11,753 bases of DNA from Candidatus Nitrosopumilus sp. (GTDB lineage Archaea; Thermoproteota; Nitrososphaeria; Nitrososphaerales; Nitrosopumilaceae): the NCBI GenBank assembly GCA_011055585.1, contig DRGT01000102.1, forward strand, positions 1-11,753, given 5' to 3'. The notes under the pieces are model-generated. The model was not told the DNA's origin and ran no database searches. It saw nothing but the letters and a program-made list of their open reading frames with translations. Shown here in pieces: positions 1 through 11,753 of the stretch (position 1 is its first letter; every line of letters begins with the position of its first letter). The translations under genes and the position numbers were made by a program.

Positions 1-84
1 GGAAATACCTTTTTTATCTATAGAACCCACTACGATGATATTTTCTTGTTCCATTAATTTTTGGATTCCATCAGGAATTATCAC
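1..84 (-). CDS. Partial gene, N-terminus of a probable pyridoxamine 5'-phosphate oxidase-like flavoprotein
   Basis: Only the first 28 codons are inside the window; the gene runs off the left edge. The frame begins with GTG at 84; an in-frame TGA lies seven codons upstream with no ATG between, so this start is the natural choice. The peptide has an amphipathic start (IPDGIQKLMEQEN), then a beta strand (IIVVGSID) and a turn (KKGIS). That matches the first helix and strand of the split-barrel FMN-binding (PNPOx-like) family common in archaea. The assignment rests on this short N-terminal pattern only. An A/T-rich TATA-like stretch lies around 110-118 on the minus strand. The active-site region is outside the window. 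Confidence 0.5.
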   Translation of the reverse strand, partial: MIIPDGIQKLMEQENIIVVGSIDKKGIS

Positions 85-251
85 TATATGATAAAAATAA
101 TTTCAATTTCTAATAAACTGGCATTACAAAAATCAATATTGATAACTAATTTTCTTTAATTTATTATCATGATTTAATAATTTGGGTAATAGCAGAATCA
201 TCTTTGATAATCATGTCCGGTCAATAATAGTTCTAAAATGAATAATTAAAC

Positions 252-470
252 ATGCAAGAATTTCTGGGTATAAGTCCTGAATGGAAACCAATTATTGGCA
301 CAATCTCAGTCATGATCTTGGGTATTTCTCTTCTACTTGTACACAAAAATCTCGTTTTACTTCCAGATGCTATACTATTTGGAGCTGCAGCAATGTGGGT
401 TTCAGGAGCAGTGATTTCTCTATATTGGGTTGTAATGATTGAACGACGAAAACGTCATAATTCCTATTGA
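252..470 (+). CDS. Small two-helix membrane protein, function unknown
   Basis: This is a 72-residue hydrophobic protein I do not recognise by family. Residues 13-30 form one predicted transmembrane helix and residues 36-62 a second, long one containing the small-residue run GAAAMW. The C-terminus is strongly basic (ERRKRH), which suggests a cytoplasmic tail by the positive-inside rule. There is no cleavable signal peptide and there are no metal-ligand clusters. ATG at 252 is the first start after a stop and no Shine-Dalgarno sequence precedes it. The only A/T-rich box at a suitable distance for a leaderless transcript (about 221-230) is weak. The 3' end overlaps a possible 31-aa ORF in another frame. 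Confidence 0.6.
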   Translation: MQEFLGISPEWKPIIGTISVMILGISLLLVHKNLVLLPDAILFGAAAMWVSGAVISLYWVVMIERRKRHNSY

Positions 471-534
471 TCGCCAGAAAGATGTTACAAAGTATAATGG
501 AAAACAAGTTAAGATAACTATAGACGGAATCTAA
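439..534 (+). CDS. Possible 31-aa small protein overlapping the upstream membrane gene
   Basis: A short frame starts with TTG at 439, just after two stops (433-438), and ends with TAA at 532. It overlaps the last 32 bases of the membrane protein gene. The peptide (VIIPIDRQKDVTKYNGKQ, then VKITIDGI at the end) looks like real protein: mixed charge, no low-complexity run, and a beta-hairpin-like C-terminus. It fills most of the otherwise empty gap before the CBS gene. The overlap suggests translation coupled to the upstream gene. Against it are the TTG start, a weak ribosome-binding site and the short length. It could also be the remnant of a longer gene. I know no family for it. Confidence 0.35.
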   Translation: MNDENVIIPIDRQKDVTKYNGKQVKITIDGI

Positions 535-566
535 TTCATACTTCAAATTTGGAAATCAACTCTGGT

Positions 567-576
567 CTTTATTAGT
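567..576 (+). promoter_or_regulatory. Candidate TATA box for the four-CBS gene at 597
   Basis: The A/T-rich element CTTTATTAGT is centred about 26 bases before GTG 597, the spacing expected of an archaeal TATA box on a leaderless transcript. The match is modest and there is no Shine-Dalgarno sequence before the start. Confidence 0.3.
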
Positions 577-596
577 CAAAAATTAAAAAAGTAGTT

Positions 597-1424
597 GTGG
601 TTATTGCAAAAAATTTGATGCATGAACAGATAACAATTCTTAGAGATTCTTCTCTTTCAGATGCAATAAAAAAACTACTTTATTATAACATTAGTAGACT
701 AATTGTTAGAAAAGATCTAAAACCAGTTGGCATTTTAACAGAAAAAGATATTGGCGATTTCTTGTTCAAAGACACTTCAGCTTCAAGTCTGGAACAAATT
801 CCTATAGATAAAATTATGAAACAAATTATTTTCATTGATGGTACTGCCTCAGTACAAGAATGTGCTAGAACCATGATTTCAAAGGGGATTAGTTCTTTAG
901 TAGTTGGTACCTCTGAAAAAGCTGAGGGCATATTAACCAAAACGGACATTGTTGCAAATTATGCAGAAAGCCATGTTGGTGAAAATAAGGTTGTACAAAT
1001 CAAAAATCCAGGATATGTTTCCGTTTCAACAGAGTCCCCTCTTTCAGAAGCAATCCAAAAAATGCTTGAAAATAACATATCAAGAATAATTGTTACAAAC
1101 CAAAACAAAAAACCAATAGGAATTATCACCTTTAGAGACTTTTTTGGGATAACATTACAATTGGCTAGTCAGATAGATGTAACTGAATCTGCGGTTCTTT
1201 CAGGTCAAATGAGAAAGGGTTTTCTCTCCGATGTGGGATTTGGCGGAATCTCATTGGCAAGAGACATTATGACACGTAAAATACTTTCAGTTAGTCCTGA
1301 CGATGATTTATCATATGCATGCAAATTGATGATTACTAATCAGATTAACGGATTAGCAGTTGTAGACAAGGAAGGAAACACTGGAATAATCAGCAAAACT
1401 GACATTGTACAATTCTTAACATGA
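597..1424 (+). CDS. Four-CBS-domain protein, probable adenine-nucleotide sensor
   Basis: This 275-residue protein consists almost wholly of four CBS (Bateman) motifs at about residues 3-58, 67-122, 133-188 and 218-275. Each repeat shows the family signature, ending in a G-I-[IL]-[ST]-x-x-D or F-R-D strand-helix such as GILTEKDI, GILTKTDI, GIITFRDF and GIISKTDI. CBS pairs bind AMP, ATP, SAM or other adenosine ligands in the family. No catalytic or DNA-binding domain is attached, so it probably works by binding a partner. A linker of about 30 residues separates repeats 3 and 4. The start is GTG at 597; an internal ATG follows at codon 8, but starting there would cut into the first CBS repeat. 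The USP gene downstream has its own TATA box, so the two need not be one operon. Ligand and partner cannot be read from the sequence. Confidence 0.85.
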   Translation: MVIAKNLMHEQITILRDSSLSDAIKKLLYYNISRLIVRKDLKPVGILTEKDIGDFLFKDTSASSLEQIPIDKIMKQIIFIDGTASVQECARTMISKGISSLVVGTSEKAEGILTKTDIVANYAESHVGENKVVQIKNPGYVSVSTESPLSEAIQKMLENNISRIIVTNQNKKPIGIITFRDFFGITLQLASQIDVTESAVLSGQMRKGFLSDVGFGGISLARDIMTRKILSVSPDDDLSYACKLMITNQINGLAVVDKEGNTGIISKTDIVQFLT

Positions 1425-1480
1425 AGAGGAGTAGAAGAAATTTTTTCTTAATAACTCATGAAATGATTTTACAAAGAAAT

Positions 1481-1490
1481 TTTTAAAATT
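1481..1490 (+). promoter_or_regulatory. TATA box of the universal stress protein gene at 1513
   Basis: TTTTAAAATT is centred 27-28 bases before GTG 1513. This spacing predicts transcription starting at or within a base or two of that GTG. It supports a leaderless mRNA and favours GTG 1513 over the internal ATGs at 1522 and 1546. Confidence 0.5.
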
Positions 1491-1512
1491 ATCAAAACCG
1501 AAAATCATCTTT

Positions 1513-1974
1513 GTGTCTTATATGCCAAGTCAAGACAGAAATTGTATGGCAACAAAATTAAAGAAAATTCTTGTTCCTTTTGATGGTTCTAAAAACTCAT
1601 TAAAAGGAGTGGATCTCGCTATTAGGCTTGCAACGCCTCACGATGCTTCAGTAACAATTTTTCATGTTGTACCGCTCTCACATAGTTATGGATTTCCGCT
1701 AACAAACGATTTTCATAAACTAGCTCAAAGAAAAGCGAATGGAATTATACAAGATGCCTTAAACTACATCAAAAAAAGAGATGTTCAAATTAAGAGTAAA
1801 ATCCTGTTTGGAGATAAGATAGGAAGTACTATTGTTAAATTTTCTAGCCACAATAAATTTGACCTCATTGTAATATGTTCTCGTGGACTAAGTTCCCGAA
1901 TGGAAAGGTTCCTTGGCAGTGTTTCAAATTATGTTATACATAATTCGAAGATTTCAGTAGTGCTAGTAAGGTGA
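1513..1974 (+). CDS. Universal stress protein (UspA family)
   Basis: A single-domain USP of 153 residues with the alpha/beta Rossmann-like fold. The first strand and adenine-contacting Asp are in KILVPFDGS (residues 18-26, D24). The C-terminal nucleotide loop is CSRG-x9-GS (residues 122-136), where ATP-binding members have G-x2-G-x9-G-[ST]; here the first Gly is Cys122, while G125, G135 and S136 are kept. ATP or AMP binding is therefore plausible but not certain. Family members act in the cytosol as dimers in stress and energy-limitation responses. The start is ambiguous: GTG 1513 fits the upstream TATA box, but ATG 1522 or ATG 1546 (MATKLKKILVP) gives a more typical N-terminus. It faces the SAM synthetase gene convergently. 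Confidence 0.85.
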   Translation: MSYMPSQDRNCMATKLKKILVPFDGSKNSLKGVDLAIRLATPHDASVTIFHVVPLSHSYGFPLTNDFHKLAQRKANGIIQDALNYIKKRDVQIKSKILFGDKIGSTIVKFSSHNKFDLIVICSRGLSSRMERFLGSVSNYVIHNSKISVVLVR

Positions 1975-1982
1975 ACCATATA

Positions 1983-2029
1983 GGATTAAAAAATCAAAAA
2001 ATGAGCAAAACAAACTAACCTCTTTTTTT
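1983..2029. terminator. Bidirectional T-rich terminator region between convergent genes
   Basis: The 57-base gap between the convergent USP and SAM synthetase genes holds T-tracts for both directions. A T7 run at 2023-2029 follows the plus-strand USP. On the minus strand, two T6 runs (complement of 1988-1993 and 1996-2001) follow the SAM synthetase stop. Archaeal intrinsic termination relies mainly on such T-tracts. A small GATT/AATC inverted repeat sits at 1983-1994, but its stem is too short to matter. Confidence 0.5.
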
Positions 2030-2031
2030 AA

Positions 2032-3234
2032 TCACGCAATAGCTACTTTCCCTGAAATCAAATCACTACAAAAAACATCAATGTTTTCCAAATGCCTCTC
2101 AATTATTTCTTCAATCTGTTTCTTTTCTTTAGCGCCAATTTCTGCTCTGTTTTGTAAAATGGGTTGTACCACAACAGCTTTTGGTTCTTTAACTGGGCTT
2201 CCGATAATGTTATACATCCATACAAAAACTTCATCCATTTCTGGAATGGCATTTTGTATTTCATCGGCCAATTTGAAGGAAAGAGCATTGTAGATCTTAC
2301 CAATATGACTTACAGGATTTTTTCCAGCAGTTGCCTCAGCTCCTGCAGGTCTGCTGGGAGAAATAACACGATTTACCATGTTTCCTCTTCCAACCTCCCC
2401 CGAGTCAGCGCTATCTGCGGATGTACCAAGAACAGTGAGGTAAAGTCCGTCTATTCCACTGTTCTCATTATCAAGACAGTTAATCCTTGCATCTATTGAG
2501 AAATCTTCATCCTTTAGATATTCTAAAAGAGAGTTCAGCATCTCCTGTTTTCTTCTAAAATAATTTGCTCCAGATTCCACAAACTTGTCTACAAAAGCCA
2601 TTGCAATTGTTAGATCTAGATGATTTTGATTTCTAAATCCCATAACTTTAACATCTTCACCTGATTCAGGAAATTCTTTTTTGAAGTTCTTTGAATTTAG
2701 ATATTCTTCTGTAGATAGTACAATCGATTCAGTTTTTGTAAATGGTGCATAACCAACAAGAGCAGAGGTATCATTTGATGAAAACATTTTTGGGTCTTTG
2801 AAAACTGATTGTAGTTCTTTTGATGCTGTTCCAATCTCAACTTGATAATCAATATGTTCATCTTCCACAAACCTCAAATTATTTTGAATCCATGATTTTG
2901 CAGAAGAAATTGCAAGATCACCAATTGGGAATTTTTTTTCACCTACTTCAAAAGTAGCCCTGTCACCAAAAATGAGTTTCATTGGTTTGGTAACTTTTCC
3001 TCCAGAAAATTTGTTAATGCTTTGACCTGCAACCAACATACCTTTATCCATATTATGATGTTGAACAGAACCAGTCTCTTTTAGATAGAATTTTGATAAA
3101 TCTACAGATACTTGATTCATGATCAGATCACAAATTGTATCTGGATGCCCAATACCTTTTCTTTCAACTATCTCAAATCGTTTTTTGAAGGTAGGTACAC
3201 TTTTTATCGTTTCAAAGAAAATGTTTTCAGCCAT
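2032..3234 (-). CDS. mat: S-adenosylmethionine synthetase, archaeal type (methionine adenosyltransferase)
   Basis: Makes S-adenosylmethionine from ATP and L-methionine, releasing phosphate and diphosphate, in the cytosol. The 400-residue length is the norm for the archaeal MAT family (COG1812), which is very divergent from bacterial MetK. Family landmarks are all present: GIGHPDTICD (27-36, near-N-terminal catalytic region), NDTSALVGYAP (154-164), the Gly/Ser/Asp-rich loop GTSADSADSGEVGRGN (270-285), and the long conserved block RPAGAEATAGKN followed by HIGKIYN (295-316). ATG at 3234 begins 4 bases after the stop of the small membrane gene upstream, so it is probably the last gene of a three-gene transcript. 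Its product would serve the two SAM-dependent methyltransferases in this window as well as the whole cell. No missing motif or truncation seen. Confidence 0.96.
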   Translation of the reverse strand: MAENIFFETIKSVPTFKKRFEIVERKGIGHPDTICDLIMNQVSVDLSKFYLKETGSVQHHNMDKGMLVAGQSINKFSGGKVTKPMKLIFGDRATFEVGEKKFPIGDLAISSAKSWIQNNLRFVEDEHIDYQVEIGTASKELQSVFKDPKMFSSNDTSALVGYAPFTKTESIVLSTEEYLNSKNFKKEFPESGEDVKVMGFRNQNHLDLTIAMAFVDKFVESGANYFRRKQEMLNSLLEYLKDEDFSIDARINCLDNENSGIDGLYLTVLGTSADSADSGEVGRGNMVNRVISPSRPAGAEATAGKNPVSHIGKIYNALSFKLADEIQNAIPEMDEVFVWMYNIIGSPVKEPKAVVVQPILQNRAEIGAKEKKQIEEIIERHLENIDVFCSDLISGKVAIA

Positions 3235-3238
3235 TGTG

Positions 3239-3463
3239 TTAAAATCTTCTTGCTGGTTTGAACTTACCCTTTTTGAATTGATAAAAAATACGAATAATAA
3301 ACAAAAACCAGATCATGAATAATATAAAAAAAATCAATCGATTGTCGCTTTCTGTTGATGGTGAAATAGGTTCTGGAGATTCTCGTTGCTCTTCAAGTGG
3401 TGAAACTATTACTATGTAAAGTATAATTGGAATAATGATTACTGGTGCTAGTTGAAAAACCAT
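3239..3463 (-). CDS. 74-aa two-helix membrane protein upstream of SAM synthetase
   Basis: Unrecognised small integral membrane protein. Helix 1 spans residues 5-21 (APVIIIPIILYIVIV), then comes an acidic, proline-rich loop (residues 22-40) and helix 2 at 42-62, followed by a basic tail (KKGKFKPARR). The pattern suggests a hairpin with both ends in the cytoplasm and the acidic loop outside. I chose ATG 3463 because it lies 2 bases after the stop of the upstream gene and starts directly at the hydrophobic helix. The frame is open further, to 3589, but that extension overlaps the upstream gene by over 120 bases and is not protein-like. Four bases separate it from the SAM synthetase ATG, so the two are very likely co-translated. 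Confidence 0.6.
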   Translation of the reverse strand: MVFQLAPVIIIPIILYIVIVSPLEEQRESPEPISPSTESDNRLIFFILFMIWFLFIIRIFYQFKKGKFKPARRF

Positions 3464-3465
3464 TT

Positions 3466-3819
3466 TTAGCCCAATCTTTTGTAGGTTTGATGAAATTCTG
3501 TATAAAGAGTGAACGCAATGTCTTGTAGATTGATAATTTGATGTATGTTCTTTTTGCCTTTTGCCATAGATCTCATAATTGTCATACATTTAGCATTCTT
3601 ATTGGCATTTGATTCTCCATCATCAGTCCAAATTTTAAAACACTCTTCAAAATTAAGACAAAGTTTCAAAACAATTATTTCCCAGTCTTCTGTGGTTCTA
3701 GGAATTCCAATGGCTTCAGCTAATTCCATAAACTCATTTTTTCTATCACGTAGTAACAAGTTTAGCGTTTCTCGGACTTTTTTCTCCTCAAACCCTCCAA
3801 TTAACGCAATACGACTCAT
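3466..3819 (-). CDS. Conserved-looking 117-aa hypothetical protein, first gene of the SAM synthetase operon
   Basis: I do not recognise this family. The protein is soluble and mainly helical by its pattern, with an N-terminal MSRIALIGGFEEKK, an amphipathic helix rich in Leu/Arg (residues 14-27), and a mid-section with Trp46 and Trp64 and cysteines at 54, 60 and 78. No metal-binding spacing, signal peptide or membrane segment is visible. The start at ATG 3819 is supported by a TATA-like box about 26 bases upstream (3840-3850), which predicts a leaderless transcript. It stands first in a tight unit: 2 bases before the small membrane gene, which in turn is 4 bases before SAM synthetase. Co-transcription is likely, but nothing in the sequence ties it functionally to SAM synthesis. 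Confidence 0.65.
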   Translation of the reverse strand: MSRIALIGGFEEKKVRETLNLLLRDRKNEFMELAEAIGIPRTTEDWEIIVLKLCLNFEECFKIWTDDGESNANKNAKCMTIMRSMAKGKKNIHQIINLQDIAFTLYTEFHQTYKRLG

Positions 3820-3839
3820 TAAATCAACTTCTCATTAGA

Positions 3840-3850
3840 GTTTAAAAAAC
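3840..3850 (-). promoter_or_regulatory. TATA box for the 117-aa gene / SAM synthetase operon
   Basis: On the minus strand the element reads GTTTTTTAAAC, centred 26 bases before ATG 3819. This is the position expected for a leaderless archaeal transcript and the best promoter candidate for the whole three-gene unit ending with SAM synthetase. Confidence 0.5.
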
Positions 3851-3900
3851 GGCCAGACTATTTTCATGTTTGATTATCAAAGGTTTGCATTATTCTACTT

Positions 3901-4023
3901 TTATTTTACTTCCAGAAAATAATTTTGGGATAGAATTTGTTGTTCAATATCATCTCTAAACATTGGATTTACTAGAGTACATACAATGTTAATTTCTGTC
4001 TCAGGTTTTTTCATGCATATCAT
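3901..4023 (-). CDS. 40-aa small ORF coupled to the PAC2 gene by an ATGA overlap
   Basis: The ATG at 4023 overlaps the TGA stop of the PAC2-family gene in the 4-base ATGA arrangement, and a second in-frame ATG follows at 4014. The frame runs to TAA at 3901. The peptide is protein-like: a polar start (MKKPETE), a hydrophobic strand (INIVCTLVNP), an amphipathic helix (MFRDDIEQQILSQN) and a second strand (YFLEVK). This beta-alpha-beta order recalls the opening of ferredoxin-like folds, for example nucleoside diphosphate kinase, but I do not assert homology. It may be a genuine small protein or the surviving N-terminal part of a larger one; no continuation is visible in other frames downstream. 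The same overlap joins the two genes ahead of it, which argues for a three-gene coupled operon. Confidence 0.5.
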   Translation of the reverse strand: MICMKKPETEINIVCTLVNPMFRDDIEQQILSQNYFLEVK

Positions 4024-4754
4024 CTATAGATTTGAGGAGCTCGTGCTTGCGGTTGTTTTTCGTGTTGTTGCTGTAATGCTTTGACAGTTTCTTCCATAAG
4101 ATTACGATTTTGGATTTTTAATAGCTCTATATTTTTCTGAATGTCTGTGGTATCCACTTTAATATTCAAAATCTTTGCAACAGAGGTTATGGCAACAATT
4201 GAAGCCTCAAGATCAGGTAAAAATGGATGACACTCCACATATAACATAAGTACTGGAATGTTTGATTTTCTAAACACCGAAATTATTGCAGCATCTGTGC
4301 CAAAAATTGAACCTGAAAGAAACTTTGGTATTTCATTCTTGTATAGAGCTTCTTCTAAAGATGGATGAGTGATTAATCCAAAAATTTTGGATTTTTTTGA
4401 GACATGATCTATAATTCCCAGTCCACTTACAATGATAATTTTTGAAATTTTTTGTTTTTTACAAAATCCAAGTGTTGATTGAGCAAAATCATATGCTACA
4501 AACGGATCAAATGGCAAATCCGAAATTATTATGTACAAATTATCCTTATTGTAAATTCTAATTGGTGCCAGTATTTCTCCATTTTCGACAAAAAAAGCTG
4601 AAGGTAAATCAGGATGATCTATTTCTCCAATTTGCTTCATTTTCTGAATATGAATAAGATAAGATATTGTGAAAGTTCCTACTAGTCCGTTACTAGGAAA
4701 TCCTACTATCAAGACTTTGTCATTTCTATTTTTTGTTGATTTTTTGGATTTCAT
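4020..4754 (-). CDS. PAC2-family protein (archaeal proteasome assembly chaperone/activator homologue) with C-terminal HbYX motif
   Basis: A 244-residue member of the PAC2 family (COG2047-like), homologous to eukaryotic proteasome assembly chaperones PAC1/PAC2 and archaeal PbaA/PbaB. The N-terminal strand-loop VGFPSNGLVG (17-26) is the family hallmark. Later features are the ISDLP strand (77-81), VSGLG (109-113), and the C-terminal VECHPFLPDLEAS (173-185), which corresponds to the family's conserved Pro-Asp-x-Glu-Ala region. From about residue 200 a coiled, charged helix leads into a flexible Gln/Pro-rich tail ending Ile242-Tyr243-Arg244. That fits hydrophobic-Tyr-any (HbYX), the tail with which proteasome activators dock into the 20S alpha ring. 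Archaeal PbaB is reported to act as an ATP-independent proteasome activator through such tails. ATG 4754 overlaps the stop of the upstream CBS gene by four bases (ATGA), so translation is coupled. Confidence 0.82.
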   Translation of the reverse strand: MKSKKSTKNRNDKVLIVGFPSNGLVGTFTISYLIHIQKMKQIGEIDHPDLPSAFFVENGEILAPIRIYNKDNLYIIISDLPFDPFVAYDFAQSTLGFCKKQKISKIIIVSGLGIIDHVSKKSKIFGLITHPSLEEALYKNEIPKFLSGSIFGTDAAIISVFRKSNIPVLMLYVECHPFLPDLEASIVAITSVAKILNIKVDTTDIQKNIELLKIQNRNLMEETVKALQQQHEKQPQARAPQIYR

Positions 4755-5932
4755 AACGCTGTAATTGGGAGATTAATTTTTCTTATACTCGTTTTTGAAC
4801 GTCTTTTAGATCTTTTCGAAAGATTTCTGAGCAGTTTTTGACTTAGATTTTCAAGAACTTTGCTTAGATCAAAACCAACTTCCTTGTAGATATACGGAGA
4901 ATGGTGTGGAGTAGTAACCATTATTGATATGTCAAACTTACCTGCCTTTTTACTGCCTGATCTTTGTTGTTTGATTGAAATCTTTGCTTCTTGTATTTCC
5001 GAATATACCTTTTGGATTCGTTTTAGAGTTTTTGTAAATTTTGAAGTAATCAAATCCACATTTCGTTGATCCTCTGGCATTCCAACTATGTAAAGAGGAA
5101 TTTCAGTTTCCATCTTTACACTCAGTAGGCTCATGATATCCCGATATGTAATAATCCCAAGAAGATTTTCTCGCAAATTAACAAGACAACATGTGGTATT
5201 TGTTTTGAGCATTTTTTCTAATATTGAATTTAAATTATCATCTGGAACGCATTGGGGTATACGAGTTGTTCCTATGTTACCTATTTTTGATTGTAAATTG
5301 CGAACTTTTTTCATTCCCATGGCACGTCTGCCTAAACTTTCATGAGGAAGCAAAGCATGGAGAATATGATAAGAGGTAAGAACTTGTTTAATAATGCCTT
5401 TATTTTGTACTGGAAGGTGGTCTATTCTTTTTAAAGTCATAATTTTTCTTGCTGTACTTAATGATTTTTCTGAAGAAATTGTAATTGGGTTTTTAGTGAA
5501 AATTAGATTTGCTTTAATCCATTTATTATCTTTAGAAGAAAGTAATCTCAAAATTTTTTCTGCTTTAATCCCTCCAATAATTTCTCCATTATCAACTACA
5601 GGCACGGTTCTAATTCGATAGTGATTCATAACATTAGCCGCTTTTTGGACATTATCTTTTAAAGTTAAGGCTGGAATAGTTTCAAGAAATGGTTTTACTT
5701 TCATATCTACAATGTCTTTACCCGAAAGTAGCGTTCGAACATTTGTTGTTAAAACGGATTTCCCATTTAGGTAAAATGCATCATATGAATCATTTTTCGA
5801 TAGCTGATTAATAATTCTGGAAACAGAAGAATTTGGTTCAATTATTGTTACAGGTTCAAGTAGAGAATTGATTTTTTTGTAAGAGATATCTTTTAGATGC
5901 TCATATATTGTGTCCGAAATCATAATTTCCAC
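4751..5932 (-). CDS. CBS-domain protein with C-terminal ribosome hibernation factor (HPF/RaiA)-like region
   Basis: A 393-residue protein. Residues 18-71, 78-132, 141-194 and 217-271 are four CBS motifs, several degenerate, the clearest being RTVPVVDNGEIIGGIKA and LLGIITYRDIMSLLS. The linker 195-216 is basic. Residues 278-378 are not CBS. They read as strand (PLYIVGM), amphipathic helix (LITSKFTKTLKRIQKVYSEI), strand (EAKISIKQ), strand (FDISIMVTT) and helix (FDLSKVLENLSQKLLRNLSK), ending in a cluster of Lys/Arg. That is the beta-alpha-beta-beta-alpha layout and charge pattern of HPF/RaiA (S30AE), which bind the small ribosomal subunit and stop translation. The HPF call rests on this pattern, not on a search. 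Inference: an adenosine-ligand sensor gates ribosome binding. GTG 5932 fits a TATA box at 5956-5965; ATG 5923 is the alternative. First gene of a coupled cassette. Confidence 0.75.
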   Translation of the reverse strand: MEIMISDTIYEHLKDISYKKINSLLEPVTIIEPNSSVSRIINQLSKNDSYDAFYLNGKSVLTTNVRTLLSGKDIVDMKVKPFLETIPALTLKDNVQKAANVMNHYRIRTVPVVDNGEIIGGIKAEKILRLLSSKDNKWIKANLIFTKNPITISSEKSLSTARKIMTLKRIDHLPVQNKGIIKQVLTSYHILHALLPHESLGRRAMGMKKVRNLQSKIGNIGTTRIPQCVPDDNLNSILEKMLKTNTTCCLVNLRENLLGIITYRDIMSLLSVKMETEIPLYIVGMPEDQRNVDLITSKFTKTLKRIQKVYSEIQEAKISIKQQRSGSKKAGKFDISIMVTTPHHSPYIYKEVGFDLSKVLENLSQKLLRNLSKRSKRRSKTSIRKINLPITAL

Positions 5933-5955
5933 TTCAAGTTAGTTTCCTTTTTTTG

Positions 5956-5965
5956 CATTAAAAAC
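5956..5965 (-). promoter_or_regulatory. Candidate TATA box for the CBS-HPF / PAC2 cassette
   Basis: The minus strand reads GTTTTTAATG, centred about 28 bases before GTG 5932. This fits a leaderless transcript from the GTG, or a short leader to ATG 5923. It lies in the divergent gap shared with the plus-strand CBS gene. Confidence 0.35.
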
Positions 5966-6060
5966 AATCTCCAGATTTTCAAGATTGATTTTAGGAATTT
6001 TCATTATCAGATATGATATTCAGTTTCAGTAATCAAATACAAGGTTGCTCAACAAATAAT

Positions 6061-6861
6061 ATGGGACTAAAAATTGGAAATCTTCCTGTAGCTAATTACA
6101 TGACTCCTTATCCGATCTCAGTAAATCCTAACGTATCTTTTACTGAAGCAGTAGATTTTATGGCAGAAAGAGGATTTGGCAATCTCATAATAAGTGATGG
6201 AACAATTCCAAAAGGAATACTCACAGAAAGGGAAATCTTACGAGCGGTTGCTCTTTCCAAAGACACCTCAGAGCTTAAAGTCGGGGATATTGGGTTTCAA
6301 CCATATGTCAAGATAACACCTGGTCATACCATTCTAGATGCTTCAAAAACTATGATTTCTAAGAAATCACGACTCTTAGTTTTTGATGATGACAAATTAG
6401 TAGGCATTATTACTGCATCAGATATGTTAAGAGCATTTAGGAAGACAAGCCTTACACCCACGTTAGACGAAGTAGCTAGTACCAATATAATCAAGTGTCA
6501 ATGGTCTGATACAATTTTAGATGCTGTAAAAATTTTACATGAAAAGAAGGTTGGGAGTGTCATTATAGATAATATGAAAGGGTATGGCATTTTCACTGAA
6601 AGAGATCTTCTTGTATGTGTTTTAGCTAATAATGTTGATTTAAACGGGCAAGTAGGAGGTTATTCTTCATCACCGCTCACTGTCGCAGAATTAGGGATTA
6701 AAGGAAATGAAGCTGCAAGTGTTATGGCTGCTCAGAACATTAAACGACTAGGTTTGATAAAAGAAGGTAAACTGGTTGGCATTGTTACTGCAAGAGACAT
6801 AGTAGATGCATATCAAAGTGATCAGATTACAAATCCATGGTCAGAACAAATAGGCGGATAG
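6061..6861 (+). CDS. Four-CBS-domain protein, divergent from the CBS-HPF cassette
   Basis: From ATG 6061 this is 266 residues made of four CBS motifs at about 8-64, 73-127, 134-188 and 200-252. The hallmark strand-helix ends are GILTEREI, GIITASDM, GIFTERDL and GIVTARDI. Three of the four keep the Ser/Thr and Asp that contact ribose in AMP-binding CBS pairs, so adenine-nucleotide binding is plausible. No output domain is attached. The frame is open to an earlier ATG at 6013, but the extra 16 residues (FSNQIQGCSTNN region) do not look like family sequence, and MGLKIGNLPVANYMT is a normal CBS N-terminus. A clear TATA box is not visible for either start. The gene shares its upstream region with the cassette beginning at 5932, so the two may be co-regulated. 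Confidence 0.85.
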   Translation: MGLKIGNLPVANYMTPYPISVNPNVSFTEAVDFMAERGFGNLIISDGTIPKGILTEREILRAVALSKDTSELKVGDIGFQPYVKITPGHTILDASKTMISKKSRLLVFDDDKLVGIITASDMLRAFRKTSLTPTLDEVASTNIIKCQWSDTILDAVKILHEKKVGSVIIDNMKGYGIFTERDLLVCVLANNVDLNGQVGGYSSSPLTVAELGIKGNEAASVMAAQNIKRLGLIKEGKLVGIVTARDIVDAYQSDQITNPWSEQIGG

Positions 6862-6881
6862 TTATTAGAAAGTTATTCAAG

Positions 6882-7004
6882 TTATCTGTTTTTTCCAAAC
6901 GCACCTTGATGATCACTCAAACAACATTGACATTGTTTTGTGTAACACTCACTTGATGTTTCGTGCCCGCAAGAACCACAGTGACAGTATAGATCATTTC
7001 TCAT
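6882..7004 (-). CDS. 40-aa cysteine-rich probable zinc-binding protein
   Basis: A 40-residue protein from ATG 7004 to TAA 6882 with seven cysteines (7, 9, 12, 20, 25, 27, 28) and His14. The spacing CxCxxCxHx5Cx4CxCC would supply eight ligands, enough for two tetrahedral zinc sites; other metals are possible. The same pattern, with every cysteine, the His and a following Asp at a constant offset of 15 residues, forms the N-terminal module of the isoaspartyl methyltransferase encoded at 7217-8062. This match and the compositional extremity for AT-rich DNA make it a real gene rather than a chance ORF. The last 12 residues are polar and flexible. The gene is convergent with the CBS gene ending at 6861. 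A TATA-like TATTAAATAC lies at 7031-7040 on the minus strand, about 31 bases upstream. Function unknown; partner binding or metal storage are possibilities. Confidence 0.78.
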   Translation of the reverse strand: MRNDLYCHCGSCGHETSSECYTKQCQCCLSDHQGAFGKNR

Positions 7005-7030
7005 ATCTGACAAATATTTTAATGAATTTT

Positions 7031-7040
7031 GTATTTAATA
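7031..7040 (-). promoter_or_regulatory. Candidate TATA box for the 40-aa cysteine-rich gene
   Basis: The minus strand reads TATTAAATAC, centred about 31 bases before ATG 7004. That implies a very short leader of a few bases, slightly longer than the leaderless spacing seen elsewhere in the window. Confidence 0.3.
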
Positions 7041-7086
7041 TGAAAACACGATTTTCAAAACTAATAATTATAAAATTTGAATTCAT

Positions 7087-7205
7087 GTGGCACAAGATGC
7101 AAAGACAATTTGTGTTAAGGATATCATGACAAAAAATGTCATAACTATAGATTCCACAGTATCAGTGAATCAAATATCAAAACTGATAATAAATCAAGAA
7201 AATTT
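7087..7205 (+). pseudogene. Truncated CBS-domain gene remnant
   Basis: From GTG 7087 the frame encodes the start of a CBS motif: a short lead, then VKDIMTKNVITIDSTVSV and NQISKLIINQENF, matching the first strand and helix of the four-CBS proteins in this window. The similarity stops at about codon 40, just before the isoaspartyl methyltransferase stop at 7217 on the opposite strand. Beyond that point the frame is the antisense of the methyltransferase and has no CBS character, although it stays open to 7323. The GI-x-T-x-x-D end of the motif is absent, so no full CBS fold could form. The best reading is a CBS gene whose 3' part was deleted. It might still be expressed as a 78-aa chimera, but nothing suggests a function. 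Confidence 0.65.
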
Positions 7206-7216
7206 TTTGATTCTGG

Positions 7217-8062
7217 CTAAAAGCCAAACTTTCCCTTTAATGGAACAAAAAAATAGCCTAATTCTCTCTTCAACTCTTTTATACCATCTTTGGTTTTTTT
7301 CAAGAGTATCATCGATTGCATAAATTCTCCAATTGGTGCTACTAGCAATCCATCTATCGAAAGCTGTTCAACAAGAGGTTTTGGAATCTTAGGACATGCT
7401 GCCGTGATGATTATCCTGTCAAATGGAGATTTTTCAGGAAGACCAAGTGAACCATCACCTTCAATTATTTCTACATTTTTAATTCCAGCCTTTGCGTGGT
7501 TCTTTTTAGCAAATTCTACCAGAACAGATGACATTTCAATAGAAAATACATTACCATTCTCTACCAATAATGATAAGATAGCAGATTGCCATCCAGACCC
7601 ACATCCTATTTCAAGAACCTTGTTTCCCTTCTTTACATCAAGCCACTCTGTCATTCTTGCAACAACAGATGGTTGAGATATAGTTTGTTCATTTTGAGAA
7701 GGAAGAGGTCCATCTTCATAGGCAAACTTGATGACGTTTGAAGGTACGAAAAGATGTCTAGGAACCTTTCTTATTGCTTCCTCAACTTTACTGTCTGTAA
7801 GAAATCCTTTTACCTTCATTACTTTTATGAGGTCTTCATTTCTTATTTTGCTGGCTTCGTCAAAATATGATTCTGGCCTTATTGATAGGAATCCTTCTAT
7901 CCCATCTAGGATCATTGAATGTTCATCTTTCGCACAACACGTGCATGAAGATTTGACACAATCACGAAAAAAATCATGATGACACGATTTACATGTACAA
8001 ATAGCATCTCTTGGGATCTGATCACCTCGTTCAATGCTATCTGTCTTTGTTTTCGGATTCAT
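7217..8062 (-). CDS. pcm: Protein-L-isoaspartate O-methyltransferase with N-terminal cysteine-rich module
   Basis: Methylates L-isoaspartyl residues formed by ageing Asn/Asp, starting their repair, with SAM as donor. The C-terminal 210 residues are a standard PCMT: PRHLFVP (101-107), the PCMT signature region TISQPSVVARM (127-137), SAM motif I LEIGCGSGWQSA (150-161), acidic E176 after strand 2, and a late GRI-like strand (FDRIIITAACP, 214-224). The protein is 281 aa, about 70 longer than usual. The excess is N-terminal: residues 22-43 hold CxCxxCxHx5Cx4CxCC, a probable two-zinc module shared with the 40-aa protein at 6882-7004, followed by a linker helix. ATG 8062 is preceded by a moderate AAGGTTAAG ribosome-binding site. 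The gene lies 36 bases after a USP gene on the same strand and is probably co-transcribed with it. Confidence 0.93.
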   Translation of the reverse strand: MNPKTKTDSIERGDQIPRDAICTCKSCHHDFFRDCVKSSCTCCAKDEHSMILDGIEGFLSIRPESYFDEASKIRNEDLIKVMKVKGFLTDSKVEEAIRKVPRHLFVPSNVIKFAYEDGPLPSQNEQTISQPSVVARMTEWLDVKKGNKVLEIGCGSGWQSAILSLLVENGNVFSIEMSSVLVEFAKKNHAKAGIKNVEIIEGDGSLGLPEKSPFDRIIITAACPKIPKPLVEQLSIDGLLVAPIGEFMQSMILLKKTKDGIKELKRELGYFFVPLKGKFGF

Positions 8063-8098
8063 GTCTTAACCTTTTTCACAAATTTGAATCAAACTTAG

Positions 8099-8530
8099 TT
8101 AAACAACCAAGAGTGGAACCTTTGTCTTGTTCAAGACATAATTTGAAATACTTCCAAAAACAAATTGTGAATCATCCTTATTTTTAGTACCAATTACAAT
8201 CATGCCAACATTATTTCTTTTGTTGTTAGCAAACTCTACAATATCGCGTCCTGGAAAACCACTCAGAATTTTCTCATTGAAGATAATGTCCTCTTTTTCA
8301 GTCTGTTTCCTAACTGACTTCATGATACGTTTAGCATTTTTTAACATCTCTTCTTTTAGGTTGCTGGGTCTATACACTGAGCATAAAAAAGATGTCGGCA
8401 TGACATGAATTCCTAAAATTGTAGCTTTGTTTTGTTTAGCAAGATCTATTGCATGAGTTAACCCTCGCACAGAGTTTTTTGACCCATCAAGTGGAACTAA
8501 AATGTTTTTTATTCTTACATTTTTTTGCAT
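8099..8530 (-). CDS. Universal stress protein (UspA family), probable operon partner of pcm
   Basis: A 143-residue single-domain USP. The first strand with the adenine-contacting Asp is ILVPLDGSKNS (10-20, D15). The C-terminal nucleotide loop is degenerate: GTKN (114-117) then only eight residues before GS (126-127), where ATP-binding members have G-x2-G-x9-G-[ST]. The second Gly is Asn and the loop is one residue short. Nucleotide binding may therefore be weak or lost. The Cys50 area (FLCSVYRP) falls in the variable loop. The start at ATG 8530 fits a TATA box 25 bases upstream. The gene precedes pcm by 36 bases, linking a stress protein to protein repair. Confidence 0.88.
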   Translation of the reverse strand: MQKNVRIKNILVPLDGSKNSVRGLTHAIDLAKQNKATILGIHVMPTSFLCSVYRPSNLKEEMLKNAKRIMKSVRKQTEKEDIIFNEKILSGFPGRDIVEFANNKRNNVGMIVIGTKNKDDSQFVFGSISNYVLNKTKVPLLVV

Positions 8531-8550
8531 ATTTTAAGTTCTAGTTTATT

Positions 8551-8560
8551 CTTAAATAGA
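8551..8560 (-). promoter_or_regulatory. TATA box of the USP-pcm transcription unit
   Basis: The minus strand reads TCTATTTAAG, centred 25 bases before ATG 8530, which predicts a leaderless USP mRNA. Just upstream the minus strand carries TTCAATACT, whose 9-mer complement AGTATTGAA also occurs in the 10228-10254 inverted repeat ahead of another USP gene. Confidence 0.5.
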
Positions 8561-8581
8561 GTATTGAACATTTTCAGATTT

Positions 8582-8635
8582 GATAATAGCTCCACAATTG
8601 AGAGCAAGTTTGATTGTCACTATTATCATGACAAT
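8582..8635. repeat. Overlapping inverted repeats with mutually exclusive pairings
   Basis: The 140-base gap between the kinase gene stop (8671) and the USP start (8530) has no gene. It holds a perfect 7-bp inverted repeat, ATTGTCA (8613-8619) and TGACAAT (8629-8635), around a 9-base loop. It also holds an 8-bp repeat, GATAATAG (8582-8589) and CTATTATC (8620-8627), reinforced by ACAAT (8594-8598) with ATTGT (8613-8617). The arms at 8613-8619 and 8620-8627 belong to both structures, so only one can form at a time. Possible roles are a 3'-end or processing structure for the upstream kinase operon, or an operator for the USP gene. In AT-rich DNA some such pairings arise by chance. Confidence 0.35.
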
Positions 8636-8670
8636 TTTATCACATTTTTACAGTTTGTATCAAATGTAAC

Positions 8671-9681
8671 TTAGAATGATGTTAGGTAAGAGTCTGCGAG
8701 TTTAAAATGCCTTTTCGATTCTTTGATGAAAACATTTCTTTTCTTATTCATTGGTTCATTTTTTGCTTGAAAAAGAGAAACTTTACCTCTTACACAGGCT
8801 TTGAAACACATTAGAAAATATATGAGGTTTTTTAGATCAAAATCGTTGCTTTTTTCCAAATATTGAGAAATAAAGTGCCTTCGGAGGTCCTTTCTTTTGT
8901 GAAAATCAAAATCCATAGCAAGATGAGCTACATCTTCAGCGATATCAGCATATCTTAACGAATCATTAAACTCTAATCTGTCATATAGGTAGAACCTGTT
9001 TTTTACAATGAAGATGTTTTTGAGATACAAATCGCCATGAATGTCACGAATCTTTTTGTCTTTTATGCGTCGCTCAAACAGTTTTGTGTTGTTTTTTATA
9101 AACAAGAGCAGCTTCTTTTCGTATTTGGGATTAACTTTTGTAAGTGTTTCAAGCGTTCTGAAATTTTCTTGAACTTTGTTTTGCATACATTTTGGCTGTC
9201 CAAATCTCTTTATCTTTACTCCAGTAGGGGTATAACGGTGAAAATTATCTAGAATGGTGGTCAGTTTATCTATTGTCTTGAAATTTACTTTTTTGGTATC
9301 AACAAGTTTATCCATTCTATATTTTTGAGGAATTTCAATCATTTTTACTGCATACTCTAAGGCTTTTCCAGAATGTTGTGGGTTCATAATTTTCAAATTA
9401 CTATTTTGTTTTACTACTTTTACAACTCCTCGATACATTTCATTACAGAGGACTTTGTTTAGCTTTACTTCTTTTTCACAAAACTTCTTTCTTAATTGAA
9501 GAGTAGAAAAATCAAGAACTTCACCGAATTTTAGTGCTTTTTTTATCTTGTATGCATACTTGCCTGTAAGAAATATCCATGAAATATGAGTTTCATTTAT
9601 TTGGATTTTTGATACTTTGTGCGGGTAAACATCTTTACTTTTTTTGAGAATAGAAACTAGTTCTGGTTGGGTAAATTTCAT
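8671..9681 (-). CDS. Aminoglycoside phosphotransferase-like kinase (COG2187 type)
   Basis: A 336-residue protein of the APH/protein-kinase-like superfamily, closest in motif to COG2187 proteins of unknown substrate. The N-lobe strand-Lys is YAYKIKKALKFG (42-53). The catalytic loop is HGDLYLKNIF (215-224: catalytic D217, metal-ligand N222), followed by the DFG-equivalent YDRLEFND (233-240, D234) and the COG2187-typical RYADIAEDVAHLAMDFD (243-259). Its substrate is unknown and resistance to aminoglycosides should not be assumed. In many bacteria this domain is fused ahead of a P-loop kinase in a protein of about 500 aa, M. tuberculosis Rv2004c being one example. Here the partner is a separate gene upstream, overlapping by four bases (ATGA at 9678-9681), for a combined 500 residues. 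ATG 9681 is thus well supported. Confidence 0.85.
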   Translation of the reverse strand: MKFTQPELVSILKKSKDVYPHKVSKIQINETHISWIFLTGKYAYKIKKALKFGEVLDFSTLQLRKKFCEKEVKLNKVLCNEMYRGVVKVVKQNSNLKIMNPQHSGKALEYAVKMIEIPQKYRMDKLVDTKKVNFKTIDKLTTILDNFHRYTPTGVKIKRFGQPKCMQNKVQENFRTLETLTKVNPKYEKKLLLFIKNNTKLFERRIKDKKIRDIHGDLYLKNIFIVKNRFYLYDRLEFNDSLRYADIAEDVAHLAMDFDFHKRKDLRRHFISQYLEKSNDFDLKNLIYFLMCFKACVRGKVSLFQAKNEPMNKKRNVFIKESKRHFKLADSYLTSF

Positions 9682-10172
9682 CTTTTTCGAATTTTTTTGT
9701 TTACATCCCTTGCCGTTGTCTGAGGATTCTTACTTGTATCTGCAGTAATGTGCTCACCTCTTACGGGTTCATAGATTTTTGCCATTTTATTATAAACTTG
9801 AATATCTGCATCAGACAAATCATTTTTTCTTTTTTCAAGTCGTGAAATTACAATATCTTTTGGACAAACACATTCAACAATGAATACTTGTTCTGATGAT
9901 AGCTCTAGTTTTTTTACAACGTCTCTTCTAGATCTTTCTTTGTTGAAAGTAGCATCAAGTATACAATTTTTTCCAGCATTATAGAGATATTTTGCAAATA
10001 ATAATAATACATCATAAACAAACTCTCTTTCCTTTTTGGAATAAGTGGGGTTAGGATTTAGGTCCTTTCTGATTTTGTCAGTAGATAATATGATGGCGTC
10101 AATTAGCGGAGCTAAGGCTTTAGATAGTGTTGTTTTTCCAACTCCTGGAAGCCCACAAACTATTACTATCAA
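9678..10172 (-). CDS. P-loop kinase (COG0645 / AAA_33 type), partner of the COG2187-like kinase
   Basis: A compact 164-residue P-loop NTPase. Walker A is GLPGVGKTT (7-15), preceded by the hydrophobic strand IVIVC. STDKIRKDL (30-38) is the substrate/nucleobase-side loop typical of zeta-toxin/polynucleotide-kinase-like small kinases, ILDATF (71-76) holds the Walker B-position Asp, and the Arg-rich SRLEKRK (110-116) fits the lid. The substrate is unknown. No ATG is available: the only start between the upstream stop (TAA at 10197-10199) and the P-loop strand is TTG 10172. It is preceded by AGGTGTGA, a strong Shine-Dalgarno sequence seven bases from the TTG. The stop overlaps the next gene's ATG (ATGA). 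Two separate coupled proteins in kinase-then-APH order is the reverse of the domain order in bacterial fusions. Confidence 0.85.
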   Translation of the reverse strand: MIVIVCGLPGVGKTTLSKALAPLIDAIILSTDKIRKDLNPNPTYSKKEREFVYDVLLLFAKYLYNAGKNCILDATFNKERSRRDVVKKLELSSEQVFIVECVCPKDIVISRLEKRKNDLSDADIQVYNKMAKIYEPVRGEHITADTSKNPQTTARDVNKKIRKR

Positions 10173-10179
10173 TAATTCA

Positions 10180-10184
10180 CACCT
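10180..10184 (-). promoter_or_regulatory. Shine-Dalgarno sequence fixing the TTG start of the P-loop kinase
   Basis: The minus strand reads AGGTG, seven bases before TTG 10172 (AGGTGTGAATTA then TTG). It is the clearest ribosome-binding site in a window where most first genes look leaderless. It supports TTG as the true start. Confidence 0.5.
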
Positions 10185-10227
10185 TGCTTTTTTGTTTTAT
10201 TTTGGATTATTATATTGATAAACTATC

Positions 10228-10254
10228 TTTCAATAGTGATAATCAGTATTGAAA
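10228..10254. promoter_or_regulatory. Operator-like inverted repeat in the divergent kinase/USP promoter region
   Basis: TTTCAATA (10228-10235) and TATTGAAA (10247-10254) form a perfect 8-bp inverted repeat with half-site centres 19 bp apart, about two helical turns, as for a dimeric helix-turn-helix regulator. It lies in the 156-base gap between the divergent P-loop kinase (start 10172) and USP (start 10329), upstream of both likely core promoters. The regulator is unknown; the Lrp/AsnC-like gene at the right edge only shows an effector domain, so a link to it is unsupported. Confidence 0.4.
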
Positions 10255-10297
10255 TTAGGTTTATGATTAGATTCAGCTATGAGAATTGTATTATCAG

Positions 10298-10306
10298 TTT
10301 TAATCT
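10298..10306 (+). promoter_or_regulatory. Candidate TATA box for the USP gene at 10329
   Basis: TTTTAATCT is centred about 27 bases before ATG 10329, consistent with a leaderless transcript. No Shine-Dalgarno sequence precedes the ATG. Confidence 0.4.
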
Positions 10307-10328
10307 ATATTATCGAAATTAAAGTAGA

Positions 10329-10766
10329 ATGACATTCAAAAACATTCTCGTTCCCTACGATGATTCAGAATGTGCTCTTCGTGCTTTCAAAATTGCCGCG
10401 GAGATGGCAAAGAAATTCAATTCAAAGTTAACTGTTCTCACCGTTGTTCCAAGAACATATCATGCCAGTAGTTTGTATACCAATGCTAGATACGAAGAAG
10501 TTTTGCTCAAACAACAAAGAGATTCAGCAAACAGTGCCTTATCAAAAGTAGATTCAATTGCTAAAAAGCAACGGATTAGTCTCGCAAAATATGTTTTAGA
10601 ATCTAATGCGGTGGTTAAACAAATAGTTTCATTTGCAAAATCTGAAAAATTTGATCTTATAGTAATGGGTACTCATGGGCGAACTGGCTGGAATAAGCTA
10701 ATTCTTGGAAGTGTGGCAAATGGAGTATCTCAAAGAGTTGGGTGTCATGTCTTTCTTGCAAGATAA
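10329..10766 (+). CDS. Universal stress protein (UspA family) with intact ATP-binding loop
   Basis: A 145-residue single-domain USP. The first strand with the adenine-contacting Asp is ILVPYDDSECA (6-16, D11). The C-terminal loop is complete: G114-T-H-G117, nine residues, G127-S128, the G-x2-G-x9-G-[ST] motif of ATP-binding members such as MJ0577. Of the three USPs in this window it is the only one that keeps every motif glycine, so it is the best candidate for real ATP binding. Length is normal. It is divergent from the kinase pair, with an inverted repeat between them, and is followed 77 bases downstream by the interrupted methyltransferase gene. Confidence 0.92.
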   Translation: MTFKNILVPYDDSECALRAFKIAAEMAKKFNSKLTVLTVVPRTYHASSLYTNARYEEVLLKQQRDSANSALSKVDSIAKKQRISLAKYVLESNAVVKQIVSFAKSEKFDLIVMGTHGRTGWNKLILGSVANGVSQRVGCHVFLAR

Positions 10767-10813
10767 ATTATGTAAACTGCAGTGATTTCCCAAATTGATA
10801 ATTGATTGTCAGC

Positions 10814-10820
10814 TTAAAAT
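10814..10820 (+). promoter_or_regulatory. TATA box pointing to an upstream start of the methyltransferase gene
   Basis: TTAAAAT is centred 27 bases before ATG 10844. It predicts a leaderless mRNA starting at that ATG, which is in frame with the methyltransferase but is followed by an in-frame TAA six codons later. Confidence 0.4.
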
Positions 10821-10843
10821 GTTCAAAATTCCATTATAACTAC

Positions 10844-10984
10844 ATGCAGAAAGAAGCTAGATAAAACATTGGTACCAAAAAAACTTCTCAAATAATTCAA
10901 GCGTACAGTAAATATGCAGAAAATTACGATTCTGCAGAAATTTTTTACCGTCTTCTAGGATGCAAAATACCAAAATATCGAAAA
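10844..10984 (+). pseudogene. N-terminal coding segment of the methyltransferase, interrupted by an in-frame TAA
   Basis: In the same frame as the methyltransferase at 10985, ATG 10844 opens six codons (MQKEAR), then TAA at 10862-10864, and then 40 sense codons leading into ATG 10985. Those codons read as typical methyltransferase N-terminal sequence: SQIIQAYSKYAENYDSAEIF, then YRLLGCKIPKYRK. Many small class I methyltransferases begin with just such an AYSxxAxxYD helix. No ATG, GTG or TTG lies between the TAA and 10985. Explanations are a single-base nonsense change (for example CAA or AAA to TAA), a sequencing error, or initiation at a non-standard codon such as ATT 10868. A missing base in the A7 run at 10877-10883 combined with TTG 10869 would also restore a frame. 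Confidence 0.55.
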
Positions 10985-11518
10985 ATGACTGTAGATGCAC
11001 TAGAATTATCAAAAGGAGATATAGTTGTGGAGCTTGGATGTGGAACTGGATCAAATTTTCCTTTAGTTTTAGATAAAATCGGTCCAGAAGGAAAGCTAAT
11101 TGGAGTTGATATCACCGACAAAATGCTGGAACAAGCAAGGAAGAAAATACAAAAAAATGGATGGAAAAATGTTGAATTGGTACTCTGTGATATTGCAGAA
11201 TACAATTTTCCTGAAGCATTGGATGGTATTTTCTCAACTGGTGCACTGTCATATTCTCTACAGTATGATAAAATAATCAAAAAAGCACAGGAGGCATTAA
11301 AAACTGGCAAAAATTTTGTGTTATTTGATTTTAAAAAGTCAGAAGGACCTGCAAGAATTTTTGCGCCAATATTGTTATTGACTACCAAGCCCTTTGCCGT
11401 CGATAAAGAGTATTATGAACGCCAAGCATGGAAATCAGTTGAAAAATATTCTGAAAATACTTCTTACTTAGAAGGCTGGGGCGGGTTTTTGTATCTCTCA
11501 GTTGGAAAAAAGATCTAA
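10985..11518 (+). CDS. Class I SAM-dependent methyltransferase
   Basis: The open part from ATG 10985 is 177 residues. It carries SAM motif I VVELGCGTGSNFP (14-26), the acidic ribose-binding D42 in GVDITDKMLEQARKK (40-54), motif II-like VLCDIAEYNF (66-75) and DGIFSTGALSYS (80-91). The C-terminus ends with a YLEGWGGFLYLSVGKK strand like that of small lipid/quinone-type methyltransferases. The substrate cannot be read from the sequence. The true protein probably starts about 40 residues earlier, because family-like sequence continues upstream in frame to an in-frame TAA at 10862. Without that N-terminal helix, which caps the SAM site, a protein from 10985 would likely be impaired. It follows a USP gene, and together with the kinase pair the block recalls M. 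tuberculosis Rv2003c-Rv2005c. Confidence 0.85.
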   Translation: MTVDALELSKGDIVVELGCGTGSNFPLVLDKIGPEGKLIGVDITDKMLEQARKKIQKNGWKNVELVLCDIAEYNFPEALDGIFSTGALSYSLQYDKIIKKAQEALKTGKNFVLFDFKKSEGPARIFAPILLLTTKPFAVDKEYYERQAWKSVEKYSENTSYLEGWGGFLYLSVGKKI

Positions 11519-11583
11519 CATTAACTGCTTATTGTTAAACAAAAATTTAGGAGAAATTCTGACAGTAATACTTGATCAATTTA

Positions 11584-11753
11584 TTATTTAGTTTCTGCAT
11601 CTATGGTACCGCCTTGGCCATAAAGTGCAGTCATAGTGTAACTGCTAGTTATTCCTTCAATTGATCTGATTTTAGCTACACCAAAATCTATGTCTCCAGG
11701 TATTTCTCCTGTTATTTTAACAAAAATATCATACCTTCCCATTATTCCATTAA
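11584..11753 (-). CDS. Partial gene, C-terminus of an Lrp/AsnC ligand-binding (RAM) domain protein
   Basis: The last 55 codons of a minus-strand gene that begins outside the window; two successive TAA stops end it (11584-11586, then 11581-11583). The visible part is NGIMGRYDIFVKITGE, then DIDFGVAKIRSIEGITSS and YTMTALYGQGGTID. This is the C-terminal beta-strand/helix/strand of the RAM fold, in which G-x-YD-hhhhh and hx-x-h-x-GV/I-x-S/T-x-T are typical. Whether a DNA-binding helix-turn-helix precedes it cannot be seen. Archaea of this kind encode many stand-alone RAM proteins of about 80 aa as well as full regulators. It is convergent with the methyltransferase. The 65-base gap between them has a weak T5 tract on the minus strand and nothing else clear. 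Confidence 0.75.
   Translation of the reverse strand, partial: NGIMGRYDIFVKITGEIPGDIDFGVAKIRSIEGITSSYTMTALYGQGGTIDAETK

Follow-up and report, generated by a model that had tools for sequence, protein, structure and literature searches.

We analysed a contig of Candidatus Nitrosopumilus sp. (DRGT01000102.1, whose full 11,753 nucleotides are referred to below as the window) in which three minus-strand genes form a candidate stress operon. The first (4751..5923) encodes a 390-residue protein resembling the archaeal hibernation factor HibA, with a four-CBS module followed by an HPF/RaiA domain, as delimited by the lengths and alignment of its homologues. The second (4020..4754) encodes a 244-residue PAC2 family protein of the PbaA type, assigned by Pfam and profile comparison, and the third (3901..4023), an open reading frame (ORF) of 40 codons, is by alignment to the Hsp20 genes of relatives the truncated 5' remnant of such a gene. 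As an earlier note on this DNA had pointed out, the frames are joined by two ATGA stop-start overlaps, one at 4751..4754 between the HibA-like and PAC2 genes and one at 4020..4023 between PAC2 and the Hsp20 remnant. We dropped the idea that ATGA coupling is a conserved trait, since many relatives have a 2-nt gap instead. GTG at 5932 was likewise discarded as the start of the HibA-like gene: the best 25 homologues of the protein are 390 residues long and those aligned begin at the methionine encoded at 5923, so that the ATG at 5923 is probably the true start. The organism very probably belongs to Nitrosopumilaceae: two close homologues (81% identity) are labelled with that name, and one genome from the family draw described below (G012) is 96% identical to the window locus over 2121 aligned columns.

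Judged from sequence, homology of the first product to HibA is solid. Profile alignment to P. abyssi HibA is colinear, placing residues 22-372 of 390 on residues 11-372 of 392 (E 7.8e-16), and four N-terminal CBS domains precede a C-terminal HPF/RaiA domain, as the earlier note had proposed. The latter domain (residues 275-377; 4793..5101) has the strand order strand-helix-strand-strand-strand-helix, and the comparison with HPF that the note called for yields both a fold match and a sequence profile match. In the CBS4 motif T259-x-x-D262 (5138..5149), D262 is invariant in 21/21 alignment rows and T259 is present in at least 90%; we take this to be the ribose-binding position of CBS proteins. 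The CBS3-CBS4 loop, at about residues 193-217 (5273..5347), aligns without gaps to its counterpart in P. abyssi HibA, a long CBS3-CBS4 loop being described for HibA (PMC13324472), and residues 195-207 of our protein have a pLDDT below 50 in the predicted structure. HibA (PDB 9SR9-9SRF, 9T7H) shares with the window protein its domain order, its length, the T-x-x-D motif and the loop; what sets the window protein apart is a divergent sequence and a gene that adjoins PAC2 and Hsp20 genes.

With a single sequence as query, the match to HibA spanned only residues 58-284. A phmmer search of the PDB with just the C-terminal 119 residues gave no meaningful match, and the best 50 Foldseek matches were all CBS and AMPK proteins. 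Dri and Sri, CBS-module proteins in archaeal ribosome complexes (9E6Q, 9E7F, 9ZNF-9ZNI), share the CBS fold, but among the matches listed they match over the CBS part only, unlike the full-length HibA match. No relative was found in viral contigs at the sensitivity used. Overall, the product is probably a ribosome-parking protein of the HibA family. It is not an undescribed kind of protein, HibA having been published in April 2026 (PMC13324472), and we abandoned the notion of a categorically new CBS-HPF protein.

The second product is, on sequence grounds, a solid PbaA-type homologue. The window PAC2 profile lies far nearer to P. furiosus PbaA (3WZ2/5Y9N; 91.9 bits) than to PbaB (3VR0; 35.7 bits), which comes third of the three PDB sequences ranked by it, and the protein ends in the HbYX tail Ile-Tyr-Arg (4023..4031), the ending IY[RKHG] recurring in 46/46 full-length relatives. 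A PAC2 homologue with a proteasome-docking tail had indeed been predicted. Pfam detects no CBS part in it.

As for the third gene, its Hsp20 identity is equally solid when relatives are consulted. There the gene is complete (122-171 residues by ORF), fits the Hsp20/alpha-crystallin small heat-shock proteins and exceeds the Pfam HSP20 cut-off in 4/4 cases scanned. The window ORF aligns with the start of these genes (tblastn, E down to 2.9e-4) and has neither a Pfam match nor a complete alpha-crystallin domain. We therefore gave up the earlier interpretation as a small gene in its own right in favour of a decayed Hsp20 gene. The nearest relative (L055, 96% identical) retains 52 codons and ends differently from the window's 40. 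As the relatives carry a complete Hsp20 and these two loci keep only stubs, the operon Hsp20 has been lost in this lineage; G012 retains two other Hsp20 matches in its genome.

How widespread is this arrangement? We drew 200 genomes from Nitrosopumilaceae, some of them incomplete, and separately 200 from the whole class. In the family draw, 81/200 genomes carry a CBS-HPF fusion (E<=1e-30) and 106/200 carry some form of HPF domain (E<=1e-6), 25 of them without the fusion; the remaining 94, incomplete genomes among them, have no HPF domain at that threshold. Class-wide, query A1 is matched in 110/200 genomes (E<=1e-12), with full-length fusions at about 220-290 bits and stand-alone HPF proteins among the matches. 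Nitrosopumilaceae are given in PMC13324472 as lacking identifiable hibernation factors, and stand-alone HPF/RaiA-like proteins are reported there mostly from DPANN and Nitrososphaerales. That statement may hold for our 94 genomes without HPF at threshold, and the paper's figure may draw a finer picture than the wording on factor-less groups suggests.

The gene order hibA-pac2-hsp20 is solidly conserved among the sequences compared. Neighbourhoods were counted for 85 copies from 81 genomes, a few of them fragments and 4 cut at a contig end, leaving aside the window, G010 and a frameshifted second copy in G004. A same-strand PAC2 gene lies within 250 nt in 39/81 copies and within 5 kb in 10 more, so that the pair predicted to be conserved as neighbours is so. 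Genomes hold only 3-6 PAC2 matches each (15 genomes), and adjacency by chance would therefore be rare. A tree of 88 proteins sorts the PAC2-linked copies, the window's included, into two deep clades (12/14 and 26/41 rows) plus one row elsewhere, and the linkage label changes 10 times as opposed to 29 in shuffles, near relatives being non-independent. Complete Hsp20 genes follow PAC2 in 45/47 loci with enough sequence, the misses being L055 and L130 (whose own PAC2 is cut), and in 18/18 further loci without an adjacent HibA-like gene, which makes 63/65 overall. PAC2 of this type (>=240 bits) occurs in 71/200 family genomes, 69 of which also have an HPF domain; 37/200 have HPF without it and 92/200 neither (Fisher p 1.5e-23, a test that ignores ancestry and genome completeness). 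Among the neighbours listed, neither PAC2 nor Hsp20 stands beside any of 22 stand-alone HPF loci (0/22).

Some relatives depart from the common layout. One genome with a PAC2-linked copy has a second, very divergent CBS-HPF copy (L127, G049:C257; 185 bits) on the longest branch of the tree. In the Nitrosarchaeum BD3 assembly one HibA-like copy is frameshifted (L027), and beside an intact copy PAC2 is split into two frames (L009), through either sequencing error or decay. In relatives, a stand-alone HPF gene, a universal stress protein gene and a malate/lactate dehydrogenase gene are strung together in that order (L166 3946-5651, where the families were verified; similar among L167-L185), often beside a CBS gene. 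Convergent to the operon end in many relatives is a 90-residue protein without a Pfam family (e.g. L018 10299-10571); in G013 its upstream region holds the repeat described next and is also the upstream region of an opposite-strand Hsp20 gene.

Upstream of the HibA-like gene lies a direct repeat, TGAAWATC-N5-TGAAWATC with 2 mismatches (5974..5994, minus strand), beginning 71 nt before the ATG at 5923, a position common to window and relatives. Further copies on the same strand (6002..6035; 2 and 3 mismatches) reach into the start of a divergent gene for a four-CBS protein of 282 residues (6013..6861 +), with which the promoter region is shared. The window holds 7 matches with <=3 mismatches where 2.2 are expected (0/200 shuffles). 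At least 14 of 16 letters are found within 120 nt of 38/39 PAC2-linked copies (the window's included, with 14/16) versus 11/43 others; note that the repeat was spotted in the sequences later counted, so this contrast is not independent. Across 12 whole genomes there are 36 sites with <=1 mismatch, compared with 2 for a reversed control pattern, and HibA-like genes lie downstream of 8/36. Among 30 sites examined as loci, 19, including two that overlap within a single promoter, are followed on the same strand by a start codon at a distance of 59-74 nt, either 59-61 or 71-74 nt, spacings that differ by about one repeat. The genes behind them include HibA-like genes, universal-stress-like genes (by their first residues), a PAC2 paralogue in G185 and others; the other 11/30 lack a start codon at such spacing and some lie inside open frames. 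The comparison thus shows the repeat to be conserved in sequence, and a regulator binding this 13-bp repeat would probably control the operon.

Elsewhere in the window, weak copies (2-3 mismatches) occur at 3859-3879, 7037-7070 and 10237-10257; a minus-strand ORF at 3819 has one weak repeat beginning 60 nt ahead of its start, and another begins 92 nt upstream of a universal stress protein gene at 10329.

Published work on distant archaea offers a parallel. In Thermococcales, hibA is under the heat-shock repressor Phr (PMC13324472); Phr also regulates HSP20, and PbaA, strongly heat-induced (log2FC 3.9), is a further target by motif (PMC10746257). Together these reports imply that the genes strung together here share one regulon there. 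The likeness lies in hibA, pbaA and hsp20 answering to one repressor; the difference is that the papers treat regulon members rather than a gene string, and that a 13-bp repeat stands upstream here. The terms 'proteasome', 'PAC2', 'operon' and 'neighbo' are absent from the available text of PMC13324472, and in the open-licence literature we found neither a description of a hibA-pac2-hsp20 operon nor a paper joining Nitrosopumilus with 'ribosome hibernation'.

We consider it likely that the three genes constitute a stress operon of Nitrosopumilaceae acting as a single stress switch, which would halt translation and at the same time protect or remove proteins. That the genes share a transcript, respond to stress and work in this way in the present organism is inferred; the roles assigned to the products would follow from their named families, with HibA and Pba mechanisms, like Phr control, taken from the papers. 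Heat or energy stress would induce all three genes at once: the HibA-like protein would park ribosomes and so stop protein synthesis, the PbaA-type protein would dock via HbYX to immature or stressed 20S particles, or hold clients for them, and Hsp20, complete in nearly all relatives examined and broken here, would hold unfolding proteins.

Several observations weigh against this reading. The window protein's S30AE score falls below the Pfam threshold, and the HPF part of the structure model reaches a pLDDT of only about 60-77. No PAC2 gene was found in the available flank of 32/81 copies (13 of them with <=1.5 kb of flank), and neither PAC2 nor Hsp20 was among the neighbours listed at 20 lower-scoring class-wide loci (0/20). 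The neighbourhood counts ignore shared ancestry, the window itself has lost its complete Hsp20, and PAC2 transcripts of S. acidocaldarius fell on heat shock (PMC10653856).

How might the locus be explained otherwise? Perhaps the PAC2 protein is a 20S assembly helper only, or works apart from the proteasome, so that the operon would serve hibernation and chaperoning rather than degradation. We regard this as quite possible, and it is compatible with the rest of the stress-operon interpretation. In a published test, P. furiosus PbaA failed to bind mature 20S (PMC3605417); the HbYX tail throughout the full-length relatives argues the other way, as does M. maripaludis PbaA, which binds a 20S precursor via HbYX (as told in the introduction of PMC3605417). 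Given that published test, and with the window protein nearer to PbaA than to PbaB, which is an activator, the opening of 20S proteasomes envisaged earlier is unproven.

It is distinctly improbable that the gene order is a neighbourhood frozen by descent, without joint function. Every cassette found does come from one family's draw, and the 20 lower-scoring class-level loci examined have none. Yet PAC2 and Hsp20 keep together even in the 18 loci without an adjacent HibA-like gene, PAC2 and the HPF domain co-occur across genomes, and published reports put the Thermococcales versions of all three genes under Phr.

Slighter still is the probability of a ligand-gated module, in which the CBS module would sense adenylates and directly switch ribosome silencing and proteasome opening as one, much as the note had imagined. 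CBS4 T-x-x-D is conserved and the HibA CBS module binds AMP (Kd 12 uM), but AMP or ATP caused no clear change in HibA ribosome binding in the reported experiments (PMC13324472). Moreover, the PAC2 protein has no CBS part, we saw no physical link between it and the CBS module, and many relatives do not have the two genes linked. Present data do not support the idea that an adenosine ligand gates the pair directly. Just as improbable is a CBS-based regulator of a non-ribosomal target (metabolism, or transcription, as for HhpR, a transcription factor of CBS-module family CM-3; PMC13324472) with the HPF fold reused: the CBS part alone does match many unrelated regulators, but the colinear full-length HibA match with its HPF domain, the HPF fold and profile, and linkage to chaperone genes speak against it.

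The window as a whole (1-11753) is a stress-gene island, its gene content being, as we presume, comparable to the DosR dormancy regulon of mycobacteria. It encodes three universal stress proteins (1513-1974 +, 8099-8530 - and 10329-10766 +), two more four-CBS proteins (597-1424 + and the divergent 6013-6861 + gene), a protein-isoaspartate methyltransferase (7217-8062 -) and an SAM synthetase (2032-3234 -). A further pair at 8671-10172, with an ATGA overlap at 9678-9681, encodes an AAA_33 kinase-like protein and a 336-residue protein that matched neither a Pfam family over the cut-off nor any PDB sequence at E<=1. A bolder and rather doubtful extension would be a general dormancy regulon of ammonia-oxidising archaea read from the 13-bp repeat, an archaeal counterpart of bacterial dormancy regulons, with HibA, PbaA-type protein and Hsp20 in one transcript and universal stress proteins alongside, the operon proteins passing clients on and so coupling ribosome parking to protein triage.

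Nitrosopumilaceae are among the most abundant archaea. With a divergent HibA in 81/200 genomes and an HPF domain in 106/200, the question left by the HibA paper, namely a family seemingly without a hibernation factor, is answered for a large part of it, and hibernation can now be put to the test with ammonia oxidisers in culture. Putative ribosome hibernation is tied by the operon to PAC2 and Hsp20, paralleling the heat-shock regulon of distant archaea, and its context would give PbaA-type proteins a physiological setting.
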